DNA of 35,981 bases from a virus: positions 1-35,981 of the IMG/VR virus record IMGVR_UViG_3300034012_000717; one strand, 5' to 3'. Positions 5,708-9,774 of this stretch are shown here, piece by piece. The first letter of the stretch is position 1; the number at the start of each line of letters is the position of its first letter. The notes beneath the pieces are model-generated. The model saw only the letters and a program-made list of their open reading frames with translations. It did not search any database and had not been told where the DNA came from. Both the position numbers and the translations under genes were made by a program.

Positions 5708-5912
5708 CAAACCACCTCCGCCGCTGGTGCGGCTTAACGTACTTCTCGTCGTAATAACCTCTGAGCCATGCGAGTCGTCGAATGTTGCCGCCTTGACCGC
5801 TTGGATGCGGGCAGGCCGTTGATGGCTCGCCCGTTAGAAATGCCTTCCGCCCCTCGTTTTCGTCCGCCTCGTAAGTTAAAAGCGGGCTGCCTTCCATGAC
5901 TTTTGTGGCCAT
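5700..5912 (-). CDS. Ribosome modulation factor-like small protein
   Basis: A 70-aa protein. Residues 22-56 (EGRKAFLTGEPSTACPHPSG..., then RRLAWLRGYYDEKY) match the RMF pattern of a Gly/Ala start, C-P turn, and R-x-x-W-x-x-G-Y-x-D helix. In bacteria RMF dimerises 70S ribosomes in stationary phase. RMF-like domains are found in many phage genomes, where their function is not settled. GGGAGG lies 9 bases before ATG. The gene is between the trypsin-like protease and the holin-like gene. The domain resemblance is good; ribosome binding is unproven. Confidence 0.65.
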   Translation of the reverse strand: MATKVMEGSPLLTYEADENEGRKAFLTGEPSTACPHPSGQGGNIRRLAWLRGYYDEKYVKPHQRRRWFDE

Positions 5913-5938: not shown

Positions 5939-6610
5939 CTACCGACCTAGAAGTTGTCGGGCCTTGTTGGCAAGTCCCGACCGCACCGGGGCCGTGATGC
6001 TGTGGACGGTGCCTGCCACGGTTTTCACCTTACGCTTGGCCCAGACGCTGCCGCCACTCACCACGCCAACGACCTTGCCAGCGGTGTTGACCACCGGCCC
6101 GCCGCTGTCGCCAGGCACCGCAAACGCAAACAGAACCAGCGACTTGTCGCCAATTGCCGCCACGGTTGACTTAAAGCATCTGAGGCCCTGCCCGCCACCG
6201 AATCCGCAGACACGCACAGCCTCGCCTTCCTTGGCGTCGCCGACCTCTAAAACGCTGCATCCGTCCGGCGCGGCGCAGTTCAGAACGGCCACATCCGCCT
6301 CGCGGTCAGTGCCCCGCAGCGTGGCCTTGTTGGTGCTGCCGTCGTGGAATGAGACGGTGAAAGATTCGTTGCCATCGGTGACGTGGGCAGCGGTCAGAAT
6401 CGCAGGCCGGTTATCTGACGCCTGGACAATGCAGCCAGTCCCGGTGCCGCCGTTGCTGTTACCACGCACGACCACGAGGGCCTTGGCCACTTCCGGCTCG
6501 CAGTCCACGAATTCCCAAAGGTCAGTGCCGACGCCGACTTGCCCAGCAGCGTGCTGGACCAGCAAGAAAAACGCAACCAAGACTGGTATAGACAGTTTGG
6601 CGAGATACAC
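5939..6610 (-). CDS. Secreted trypsin-like (S1 family) serine protease
   Basis: A 223-aa protein starting at GTG with AGGTG five bases upstream. Residues 1-23 form a Sec signal peptide (LVAFFLLVQHAAG). The catalytic triad is complete: His76 in LTAAHV, Asp106 in EADVAVL, Ser169 in PGDSGGP. It has at least six cysteines, consistent with disulfides after export. The fold is that of short bacterial trypsin/HtrA-type proteases without a PDZ domain. As a secreted phage protease in the lysis region it could act on envelope or S-layer proteins from inside the periplasm. Enzyme class is confident; target unknown. Confidence 0.9.
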   Translation of the reverse strand: MYLAKLSIPVLVAFFLLVQHAAGQVGVGTDLWEFVDCEPEVAKALVVVRGNSNGGTGTGCIVQASDNRPAILTAAHVTDGNESFTVSFHDGSTNKATLRGTDREADVAVLNCAAPDGCSVLEVGDAKEGEAVRVCGFGGGQGLRCFKSTVAAIGDKSLVLFAFAVPGDSGGPVVNTAGKVVGVVSGGSVWAKRKVKTVAGTVHSITAPVRSGLANKARQLLGR

Positions 6611-6876: not shown

Positions 6877-7069
6877 GCTTCTCCCTCCAGCACTGTCTTG
6901 GCATCCGCTCAATGCCGTAAGTCCGTTTAACGTCCCAGTACGCCAGCCGCTCCGCCTCATGCCGCCGCCATTCCGCAGGCCGATGCTTCCAGAACGGGTC
7001 AGACTGGCATCCTTCTTCGATAATCGCCGCCCGTTCCTCCCACAGTGCGACCAGTTCGGCTTCGGTCAT
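6860..7069 (-). CDS. Small charged helical protein, function unknown
   Basis: A 69-aa protein rich in Trp, Arg and Glu (WEERAAIIEEGCQSDPFW, EWRRHEAERLAYWDVKRTYG). The start overlaps the helicase-loader-like gene by ATGA, so it belongs to the replication operon. No family is recognised. Confidence 0.65.
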   Translation of the reverse strand: MTEAELVALWEERAAIIEEGCQSDPFWKHRPAEWRRHEAERLAYWDVKRTYGIERMPRQCWREKRDAAG

Positions 7070-7422
7070 CTGGCCAGCCGCTTTTCAATCTGCGTAATAA
7101 ACTCCGACACCTGCACCGCCGTGGCCTTAGGGTTCTCGCTGCGGTACTTGTCCGCCTCCAAGGCAATCCGCTGGTTACGCCACAGCGTCGACCGCTTGCG
7201 GGCCTCTTCCGCTCGCTGAGCCTTGATGTACCGAATCACCGCACCGACTGGCGGCATCGCTTCGGCGGTGTCGACCAAGTGCATGCAGGCCTTGGTTATC
7301 TCCGCCGTCTCGTACCGCCGCAGGGCAATCCACCAAGCTTCGACGTGCATCTCGTTGGCCTCCCGATTGAACGCCGCAAAGATGAACGCCACCGCTGCCG
7401 CCACTTCCGTTTTCGTTGTCAT
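7066..7422 (-). CDS. Probable helicase loader (G39P/DnaC-accessory-like)
   Basis: A 118-aa all-helical protein (EVAAAVAFIFAAFNR..., WWIALRRYETAEITKACMHLVDT..., MPPVGAVIRYIK) with the helical pattern of short phage helicase loaders/inhibitors such as SPP1 G39P: W-x-x-x-L near residue 30 and a PP-x-x-x-I turn after it. The start overlaps the initiator gene by ATGA, giving an initiator-loader pair like lambda O-P. No ATP-binding motif is present, consistent with G39P rather than DnaC. Assignment is by pattern and position. Confidence 0.55.
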   Translation of the reverse strand: MTTKTEVAAAVAFIFAAFNREANEMHVEAWWIALRRYETAEITKACMHLVDTAEAMPPVGAVIRYIKAQRAEEARKRSTLWRNQRIALEADKYRSENPKATAVQVSEFITQIEKRLAR

Positions 7423-8336
7423 TCGCTGTATCCCTCTAAAAGTGCCTGCTGCCCCGTAATCCGCCCCGCTGCCGCATCAGCTGCCGCCGCCTTGGAAATG
7501 ATCGCAGCCATGTTTGCTTGAGCCTGCTGGGCGAAGGTGACCGGCTTGCTGGCTGGCTGCTGTTTGGAAACGCAGAACGTCCAGCCCTGATAGTTGTTGG
7601 CAATTGCCTTTTCGATTCCGTCCCGCACAACTTCAGGCCCGTACTTGGTTAGAGCCTTCTCGACCTGCGTTACCAGTTTCTTCAGCCCCATCGGTTTGTA
7701 TTTGTGGTTTCGCTGCCGCTTGTATTCCAGCCACTCCTCACAGATGTCCCGCACGCATTCGGGGAACTGTGGCGAGGGTTCAGGTGGAACGTCCGCAGGT
7801 GGCGGTTCTTTTGGCGGCTCACCAACAGCGGTCTGTTCTTCAGCACTTTCCCCCTTGGGGGATAAAGGGGGTTCTTCTTCCTTCTTACTCTTCTCTTCTG
7901 TACTCTCCTCTACTGTGGTCACGCTTTTGTCACAAACTTCTGTGACATTTGTCACAACTTTTTGTGACATTTCTGTGACACGTTCTTTCTGCTTCCGACG
8001 AGACGCTGAAATCCGCTTTTTTGCGGACTCGCCCAGCCATCGGTCCCAGTTCGGAAAACTGATGTAAGGCTTGCCGTCGGTGTCTACGCCATGCTCCAGC
8101 CATCCAGCATCCGCCATGAGCTGCGGAAAGTCCGGCAGGGAAGTCACCCGGCCAAGTGATGTTAGCGTGACATGCTTAACGCAGCCGTCCTGCGACTGCC
8201 TTGACGCCCACGCCCAGATTCGGTGCAGGTAGCCGACCACGACTTCCTCCCGCTGGCCAATCCGTTCCGCCATGTAGGTCACGGCTGGGTCTTCGTACAG
8301 GTCCAGCCGCATTGGTATCCAGTCACCTGCCATCAT
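7419..8336 (-). CDS. Replication initiator (replisome-organiser type) containing a putative origin
   Basis: A 305-aa protein. Residues 1-125 form the winged-helix N-terminal domain of phage replisome organisers: MRLDLYEDPAV, W-A-W, DGCVKHVTLTSLG, GWLEHG, FPNWDRWLGESAKKR. Residues 125-190 are a low-complexity Val/Thr then Pro/Glu linker. Residues 190-260 form a C-terminal helical domain (ECVRDICEEWLEYKRQRNH..., NNYQGWTF) of the DnaD-like type that contacts helicase or loader. DNA coding for the linker holds iteron-like repeats. The start overlaps the RusA stop (ATGA); an ATG three bases on has better ribosome-site spacing. Role is well supported by domain layout and neighbours. Confidence 0.8.
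   Translation of the reverse strand: MMAGDWIPMRLDLYEDPAVTYMAERIGQREEVVVGYLHRIWAWASRQSQDGCVKHVTLTSLGRVTSLPDFPQLMADAGWLEHGVDTDGKPYISFPNWDRWLGESAKKRISASRRKQKERVTEMSQKVVTNVTEVCDKSVTTVEESTEEKSKKEEEPPLSPKGESAEEQTAVGEPPKEPPPADVPPEPSPQFPECVRDICEEWLEYKRQRNHKYKPMGLKKLVTQVEKALTKYGPEVVRDGIEKAIANNYQGWTFCVSKQQPASKPVTFAQQAQANMAAIISKAAAADAAAGRITGQQALLEGYSE
7871..7980. other. Putative replication origin: iterons plus polypyrimidine tract inside the initiator gene
   Basis: Positions 7926-7980 hold two and a half copies of a 22-base repeat, each an inverted pair TTTGTCACAA / TGTGACA: TGTCACA at 7928 and 7950, TGTGACA at 7941, 7963 and 7974, plus GTGGTCAC at 7915. Beside them, 7871-7912 is almost purely pyrimidine on the plus strand. 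Iterons followed by a strand-asymmetric tract inside the initiator's linker is the layout of the lambda origin in gene O. Repeats are directly visible; origin function is inferred. Confidence 0.65.
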
Positions 8337-8764
8337 TCACCCCACATTACTACGACTTCCGTGTGCGGCTGCTCGCCCAATGCCGCCCTAAACTTGCTTA
8401 GGTTCGCCTGGTACACCCGTGAATCATCCACCCACAGCTGCCCGTTCAAGGCATCCGCCAGCGACTTGAACAGGTTGTCGACATCCGGCTTGCCCAGATG
8501 CGGCATCCGCTCCGTGCCTAACTTCTTCGGCACCTTGACCGGTCTTGGGAACACGAATCGCACCAGCACCGTCACCGGCACGTCCAGCGGCTCGCCTTGG
8601 TAGGCTTCGGCGGCAGCGAACCGGGCCGCAGCCTTGAACGCATTGACCGGGTCACGTGCTGGCGTGTAGTTCATCGCCATCGCCTTGCCGTGCATGTGCA
8701 TTACCCGATGCCGCTGCCGTGGCTGGGCCACTGGGATGCCTGGGATAACAAACCGTAAAAGCAT
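8333..8764 (-). CDS. rusA: RusA-type Holliday junction resolvase
   Basis: A 143-aa protein with the RusA core near residues 91-116: GKPDVDNLFKSLADALNG then WVDDSRV. Asp94, Asp96, Lys100 and Asp113/114 fit the acidic metal site and catalytic Lys of the family. RusA dimers cut four-way junctions symmetrically during recombination and replication. GGAGG lies 6 bases before ATG. It lies between the PP-loop protein and the replication initiator and overlaps the latter by four bases. Confidence 0.93.
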   Translation of the reverse strand: MLLRFVIPGIPVAQPRQRHRVMHMHGKAMAMNYTPARDPVNAFKAAARFAAAEAYQGEPLDVPVTVLVRFVFPRPVKVPKKLGTERMPHLGKPDVDNLFKSLADALNGQLWVDDSRVYQANLSKFRAALGEQPHTEVVVMWGE

Positions 8765-8828: not shown

Positions 8829-9674
8829 TTAATTCCCGCACATGCCTTCGCAGTCCATCTGCGAAAACTGAAACTTCATTTGCCCGTCCGCTGGCTTGGC
8901 CTGTAGCTGCACCAAGGCCAGCGGCTGGCAGCTTCGGTGTAGGTATTGCTTTGACTCCATGCCTTTTGTGCAGCGGCTAGATTCGTCCCTAATCGCTTCG
9001 TCAATTTCAACAGCTCGATGCCAGCCTTGCGGGTCCGTTTCCTTAAGCCGTAGCCATTCGTCGTCGCTTCGGTATGGGCAGAACACGCAGGCCGAACGTG
9101 GGACCGTGTAGCCCGGCAGTCGCTTCCGCAGCCATGCCAAGCAGTCGGTGCGGGTCATGAAGTCGTCGAACAGCGGGAACTCAGCCCGCCATCCAGCCCG
9201 ACCGATAAACCGGGTCCGCACTCGCTCCACCCGCCGAGGCTCATCAAACGACAGGCCGAATAGCTGCGTGATTTCCAACTCCTTCGGTTTACGCTGGCCC
9301 TTTTCCAGCCCGGCCAGTTCCCGAATCGCTCGTTCGATTGGCTTAATCTTAAATTCAGCGGTGCAAAGACGCCGACCAATGCCGTTAGGCTTGCCAACTT
9401 CGTCAGCCGTATAAGCCGGAATCGAAACGAACCATTGCCCAGTAGCGTTCATGCCGTTTTTAAGATTGTCGCCCAAACTCGTTTCGCTCGCCCGGCAGAC
9501 GACAATCTCCGGCCCGCCCAGCGTCCGCAAAAATTCAAGGTGCTGGTAAACGTCCTGCGGTTCGTCGCCCGTGTCCGCAAAAATGGCGTAGTCAACTGGC
9601 GGCAAGTCGCCGTCGATAAGCATCAGAAAAAGCGTCGTGGACTGAACGCCAGCCCCAAGGTTTAAGATTCTCAT
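8829..9674 (-). CDS. PP-loop ATPase of the PAPS reductase/DndC superfamily
   Basis: A 281-aa protein with a modified PP-loop NLGAGVQSTTL (residues 5-15), FADTGDEPQDVYQHL, a LCTAEFKIKPI block, and a CVFCPYRSDDEW motif. The three conserved Cys match the phage branch of phosphoadenosine phosphosulfate reductase-like proteins. The superfamily activates substrates by adenylation and includes sulfurtransferases such as DndC. The second of two close ATGs (9674) is chosen because AAAAGG sits 6 bases upstream; longer upstream frames run through a structured leader. The reaction in phages is not established; sulfate assimilation is unlikely given the isolated gene. Confidence 0.8.
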   Translation of the reverse strand: MRILNLGAGVQSTTLFLMLIDGDLPPVDYAIFADTGDEPQDVYQHLEFLRTLGGPEIVVCRASETSLGDNLKNGMNATGQWFVSIPAYTADEVGKPNGIGRRLCTAEFKIKPIERAIRELAGLEKGQRKPKELEITQLFGLSFDEPRRVERVRTRFIGRAGWRAEFPLFDDFMTRTDCLAWLRKRLPGYTVPRSACVFCPYRSDDEWLRLKETDPQGWHRAVEIDEAIRDESSRCTKGMESKQYLHRSCQPLALVQLQAKPADGQMKFQFSQMDCEGMCGN

Positions 9675-9683
9675 TTGCATCCT

Positions 9684-9774
9684 TTTTAAACCCCCACCCT
9701 CGCCCGACGCTGCTAAGCAACCGGCAGCGGCAAAGATTACGCCGCCAACCCACACAGGTGCGAGGATGGGTTTA
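9684..9774 (-). ncRNA. Structured leader upstream of the PP-loop gene
   Basis: This gap of about 100 bases has a long-range stem: AAACCCATCCTCGC (9774-9761) pairs with GCGAGGGTGGGGGTTT (9699-9684) over about 14 pairs with a two-base bulge. It closes a loop containing smaller stems (GCGGC/GCCGC and, overlapping it, GCTGC/GCAGC). The closing stem ends just before the AAAAAGG ribosome site, so it could control translation. No known riboswitch class is recognised. Confidence 0.35.

Follow-up and report, generated by a model that had tools for sequence, protein, structure and literature searches.

A candidate replication origin within the linker-coding DNA of a phage initiator gene

The initiator gene and its neighbours

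The window, by which we mean the whole stretch of DNA analysed here, is an IMG/VR virus record of 35,981 bases, and at positions 7419–8336 of its minus strand lies a replication initiator gene of 305 codons, recognised by profile search and belonging to PHROG families through its matches to phrog_2509 (replication initiation protein, E=5.8e-37) and phrog_9474 (E=2.4e-22). Its N-terminal DNA-binding domain (DBD), approximately residues 1–108, is encoded at 8013–8336 (minus strand) and is a predicted winged helix, and its C-terminal part (7419–7849, minus strand), which is 98% identical in the relative L005, is presumed to contact the loader or the helicase. The AlphaFold model of the DBD has a mean pLDDT of 83 and the order helix-helix-strand-helix-helix-strand-strand, with weak structural matches (Z 4.7–5.3) to winged-helix proteins that include the plasmid Rep structures 4pql, 4pt7 and 5kbj; Foldseek against the PDB gave the DBD no match at E<=0.001, its profile found none among the sequences of solved structures, and NCBIfam had none for either the initiator or the loader.

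The upstream neighbour is a RusA-type resolvase gene (8333–8764), and the next gene (7066–7422, minus strand, 118 amino acids) had been said in the preliminary description to look like a helicase loader, and its profile match and predicted fold are in keeping with this. It matches the helicase loader family phrog_2289 (E=3.9e-5), with PF11417 at E=0.038 below the cut-off (15 vs 22 bits), and its model (pLDDT 93) has as top PDB match 1no1, the G39P loader of phage SPP1, with an rmsd of 2.0 over 65 columns of the 67-residue target and a probability of 1.00 but E=0.33, so the product is predicted to resemble G39P. A DnaB gene was looked for within the window and none was found, and the likely target of this loader is therefore the host helicase. 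Two further genes deserve mention, namely one for a phosphoadenosine phosphosulfate reductase-like protein (8829–9755; phrog_424, E=3e-41), which adjoins the replication genes, and one for a trypsin-like serine protease with a hydrophobic N-terminus (5939–6610; PF13365, E=1e-18) in this phage contig.

Half-sites, purine tract and inverted repeat in the linker-coding DNA

Read on the coding strand from gene nucleotide 356, the DNA for the linker holds in order the half-sites TGTCACA (7974–7980, encoding VT), TGTCACA (7963–7969, encoding MSQ in another frame), TGTGACA (7950–7956, VVT), TGTCACA (7941–7947, NVT) and TGTGACA (7928–7934, CD, in the third frame), all located on the minus strand by motif scan, then a degenerate GTGAC(C) (7918–7922, minus strand, GTCAC on the plus strand; kept in L003, L004 and L021), a 40-nt purine tract and the inverted repeat CCCCCTTTATCCCCCAAGGGGG. 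The motif, with plus-strand starts of TGTSACA at 7928, 7941, 7950, 7963 and 7974, is thus read in three codon frames (VT, MS and CD), and the encoded linker peptide is probably in large part a by-product of the DNA. The repeats of 22 bases built of TGTCACA/TGTGACA dyads that the preliminary description had reported, together with their position and that of the tract in the DNA for the initiator linker, are real: although the six TGTSACA in the whole window are an unremarkable total (5.2 expected), five of them fall within 53 bp, and Tandem Repeats Finder gives its top score in the window (73) to 7926–7972, with period 22 and 2.1 copies. When codons were resampled synonymously with the protein fixed and the phage's own codon usage, five TGTSACA arose in 2 of 200,000 trials; these motif tests were picked after the sequence was seen, and independent support comes from the comparison with relatives.

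The tract was described beforehand as nearly pyrimidine-only over 40 bases, which holds for the plus strand at 7872–7911, where the coding (minus) strand has 37 purines in 40 and reads as a degenerate member of an (AGAGA)n family. It is the best-scoring purine/pyrimidine segment of the window, and Tandem Repeats Finder ranks 7876–7916 second there (score 54), while the tract by itself is not significant under synonymous resampling (p=0.09). Adjoining it at 7850–7871 (minus strand) is the inverted repeat CCCCCTTTATCCCCCAAGGGGG (CCCCC…CCCCC…GGGGG), absent from the preliminary description, whose C/G arms arise in 8.5e-5 of synonymous-resampling trials; it is common to the window and L005, where it stands at the edge of their homology, and similar ones occur in L006, L012 and L028. 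Tested as a hairpin, the window's dyad is unremarkable (p=0.21), and a hairpin after the tract was rejected as a rule for the family, given that it reaches p<0.05 in only 23% of the genes and that many of the best ones are iteron dyads.

Loss of the repeats in close relatives with a conserved initiator, which had been named in advance as evidence against an origin, was not seen. The half-sites recur in L003 and L004, whose DBDs are 98–99% and 94% identical to that of the window, and the 114 DBD codons compared between L003 and the window show 25 synonymous changes and one replacement, while all five 7-mers are unchanged. About 15 codons touch the 7-mers, and we estimate the chance of their remaining intact at about 2% under a uniform rate; taken alone, this conservation is modest evidence, and it agrees with the coding of the motif in three frames. 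The sole close relative lacking TGTSACA repeats, L005, also has a different DBD, together with GTAACG-type repeats.

In many genes of the family, the tract takes the form AGAGAAGAGAAGAGAAGAGAAG, a 5-bp repeat. Among the genes for EEKRREE-like peptides, the exact 15-mer is present in 63 of 63, with reading frames distributed 53/28/2, and arginine in the tract is encoded by AGA in 243 of 260 cases vs 7% elsewhere. A protein-blind scan of viral contigs with a 24-mer of the tract gave 80 loci, about 75 of them, by our reading, in initiator linkers, where two frames predominate (59 and 20) and the DBDs are of several types. The (AGAGA)n tract is common to the three repeat classes A, B and C described below, and it is therefore unlikely to be read by the DBD; its role may rather be that of a region for melting (unwinding), loading or a host factor. 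Similar arrangements were observed beside other DBD families: L015 (3600–4322) encodes a Phage_rep_org_N initiator (PF09681, E=1.5e-21) whose linker carries TGTCACA repeats and an AGAG-rich tract, and in L460 (2001–2693) the linker has GAAACG/CGTTTC repeats and then a ACAGAGACAGAG tract, which extends the design to yet another DBD family.

Repeat classes, DNA-binding domains and HNH insertions among relatives

We surveyed viral and genome contigs with DBD-based scans, obtaining 143 non-redundant genes, and assigned repeat classes from their linkers: class A (TGTCAC) comprises 39 genes, class B (GGTAACG/CGTTAC) 59 and class C (GTCCGCA) 22, with one mixed gene and 22 with none, which means that there are further repeat types or that the rule has exceptions. 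Across the 143 genes, half-site density is highest 30–90 nt past the end of the DBD, and the linker half-sites far exceed synonymous resampling in class A (115 vs 28.1+/-4.1), class B (287 vs 27.5+/-6.0) and class C (58 vs 5.7+/-2.3). A generic count of 7-mers and inverted 6-mers in 90-codon blocks showed less contrast and was unexpectedly high in the DBD block, and this excess led to the class-specific test by which a second, class-matched cluster was found inside the DBD-coding part of many relatives. In classes A and B, it lies at -220 to -90 nt from the DBD end (74 vs 20.4+/-3.6 and 184 vs 27.4+/-5.6 by resampling), and in class C farther upstream (35 vs 5.0+/-1.8). Classes and regions were defined after inspection, the safeguard being a cross-class control in which the DBD cluster of class-A genes held 74 A and 8 B sites, and that of class-B genes 183 B and 3 A. 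The class B dyad GTAACG-N7-CGTTAC has equal spacing in linker and DBD cluster (31 and 35 cases), its next step in the linker being 18–19, and its start-to-start step of 13 is that of the window's TGTCACA-N6-TGTGACA. The window itself has a weak counterpart of the DBD-internal cluster at 8143–8172 (minus strand; TGTCAC at 8167–8172 and GTGAC at 8143–8147), which is not significant for this gene alone. In L097 (4001–4708), the peptide that the iterons of the linker encode (SAKCPQNVRIDADKMR) occurs again in a loop of the DBD, as though a copy of the array had entered the DNA for that domain. In L014 (match at 1803–1830) and L016 (match at 5754–5781), the DBD frame stops just before the TGTCACA iterons and the purine tract, leaving origin and C-terminal domain unfused to the DBD, which could mean a split initiator or a broken gene.

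Judged from these sequences, the repeat class follows the DBD. The nearest neighbour shares the repeat class in 106 of 119 cases when chosen by DBD and in 62 of 98 when chosen by C-terminus (0.38 by chance), and in all nine classified pairs with a C-terminal identity of at least 55% and a DBD identity of at most 50% the class differs, among them L012/L013, with C-termini 100% identical, and the window/L005. One counter-example is the pair L208/L256, with DBDs 72% identical and different classes. Where C-termini are similar and DBDs dissimilar, homology between the two genes, as read by eye, picks up again either within the purine tract or at the C/G inverted repeat.

The arrays of some relatives are interrupted by an HNH domain. 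In L003 and L004, an in-frame HNH domain of 258 nt (PF01844, E=4e-10) lies between the third and fourth half-sites, at coding nt 387–645 in L003 (gene at 1770 on), and the corresponding junction of the window, at 7949–7950, is uninterrupted; the window is the uninterrupted allele of one HNH insertion. HNH domains occupy the equivalent place, with iterons on both sides, in L117, L136 (also L137, L138 and L263) and L154, and L264 has a partial copy. In each case, the nearest DBD relative is without HNH (L003–window 99%, L136–L151 75%, L117–L145 65%, L154–L145 67%), and hence the domain has been gained or lost repeatedly. It conserves its cysteines, central histidine and TPxE motif, differs between L003 and L004 by five synonymous changes and one replacement, and sits in initiators that retain their C-terminal parts and their downstream gene, which is a G39P-like loader gene in L003 and, by reading, a DnaB-like helicase gene in L117. 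An initiator of another family, L331 (phrog_3926), also carries HNH, and L460 is an uninterrupted relative of it. HNH domains within or beside the iteron-coding linker are thus seen in phage initiators of at least two DBD families, and L291, where a DUF1376-like DBD is joined to HNH, may represent a third.

The role of the HNH domain may be homing, interference with other phages (cf. PMC8263062, PMC10448857) or nicking of the phage's own origin. A tentative and rather unlikely proposal is that the HNH initiator is an origin-homing nuclease, which its own DBD would steer to intact arrays, where it would cut the uninterrupted origin of co-infecting phages and spread by repair, its own split array still working; the window's origin would then be an uninvaded target. 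For these HNH-bearing relatives only, there is a likeness to Odn, the origin-directed nuclease of phage ICP1, in which a nuclease domain is joined to an initiator-type DBD and cleaves an iteron origin (PMC8263062); in contrast, Odn is a dedicated nuclease of GIY-YIG type, whereas the HNH domain lies inside an otherwise complete initiator and its own iteron array.

The locus read as an origin, and known replicons

We consider it very probable, from the sequence comparisons given above, that 7850–7980 is the phage's own replication origin inside the initiator gene. The N-terminal winged-helix domain would bind, as dimers, the TGTCACA-N6-TGTGACA dyads, which recur at intervals of 22 bp or two helical turns, the bound DBDs would build an initiation complex that opens the adjacent purine/pyrimidine tract, and the C-terminal part of the initiator would recruit the G39P-like loader from the next gene, which would place host DnaB on the melted strand, presumably for theta replication. 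Cumulative GC skew has no inflection at 7.9 kb and is uninformative because the likely genes are almost all on one strand.

Of the rival explanations, the one that survives best, though still improbable, takes the repeats for operators at which the initiator would repress its operon or obstruct transcription. Palindromic half-sites do suit a dimeric winged-helix regulator, and fold comparison of the DBD gives mostly MarR/CRP-like regulators, but their position is about 350 nt into the gene, they are typically followed downstream by the purine tract, for which an operator would have no need, and they travel together with the DBD as a module. It is less probable still that the function lies in the RNA, the stretch being a terminator or an internal ribosome-binding site, to both of which a purine tract with an inverted repeat after it bears a superficial likeness: in the window, AAAGTG and not a T run follows the inverted repeat, no ATG stands at ribosome spacing past the tract, an Rfam search was without match, and the coupling of iterons to the DBD is left unexplained. 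Least credible is that the pattern in the DNA is only a consequence of selection on the protein for a linker that is charged and flexible (VT/EEKRREE). The linker is of low complexity and peptides like it are widespread, but the same DNA is translated in more than one frame, and both the AGA preference of the tract and site counts about 4- to 10-fold above synonymous resampling already contradict it in the codon tests.

The reading as an origin places the window beside known replicons, since an origin within an initiator gene is a known kind of arrangement (lambda ori in O, SPP1 oriL in gene 38, pSK41 Rep boxes in rep), and its layout, repeats with a putative unwinding tract inside the initiator linker, is what the window has. 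The preliminary description had likened the locus to the lambda origin with its loader gene, a claim that is supported and fits everything tested, and had noted that the protein families differ, as they appear to do; the likeness in design may be convergent or inherited. In lambda, the iterons and the unwinding tract lie mid-gene in O (PMC7466680), and in the public record the iterons occupy gene nt 349–433 and are followed by an A/G-rich tract and then TTCGTCAGAGAATTCTGGCGAA; lambda thus has, in the same order, at the same gene position and in the linker as in the window, iterons, a coding-strand A+T tract rich in purines, and an inverted repeat, the loader gene (P in lambda) comes next in both, and the half-site step is about 13 bp. 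In contrast, the window initiator has no detectable sequence relation to O (BLASTP E=0.63), a weak O-like phrog_678 match covering its linker and beyond and not its DBD; the loader model looks more like G39P than P, with no match in a P-family profile search and the lambda P chain behind G39P at E=2.2 in the fold search; the lambda tract is A-rich, whereas that of the window's family is of AGAGA type; and lambda O, unlike the genes with the second cluster, has no iteron-like cluster in its DBD part.

In SPP1, oriL repeats and an unwinding element lie within initiator gene 38, and the loader is gp39 (1NO1) (PMC6316719), so the likeness, by this published description, extends to the origin inside the initiator gene and to the loader model matching 1NO1, whereas SPP1 has its own DnaB-type helicase, gp40, and none was found in the window. 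The pSK41 initiator has a winged-helix N-terminal domain, four Rep boxes centrally in rep, a dispensable central segment and a separate C-terminal domain, which in pSK41-type plasmids binds DnaG primase (PMC5703833); the predicted plan of the window initiator resembles that of this RepA_N type, with a weak fold match of the window DBD to its structures (Z about 5), while we count the DnaG-binding C-terminal domain as a difference, and Pfam RepA_N gave no match for the window initiator. Apparently undescribed in the literature searched are the (AGAGA)n element, the second cluster and the in-frame HNH domain inside the array; that search, in which subscription journals were sparsely covered, returned no account of an AGAGA tract, nor of an initiator with HNH within its iteron array.

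Many phage origins are unmapped, and the signature of fixed-step dyads followed by (AGAGA)n inside an initiator linker locates candidate origins in many phages by sequence alone. That the tract is near-invariant across phages with differing iterons suggests that they have a step of unwinding or host-factor action in common. The DBD and its putative binding sites change as one module and so offer a natural set for decoding winged-helix specificity, and, to judge from the HNH insertions, origins may be what phages in conflict attack in one another.
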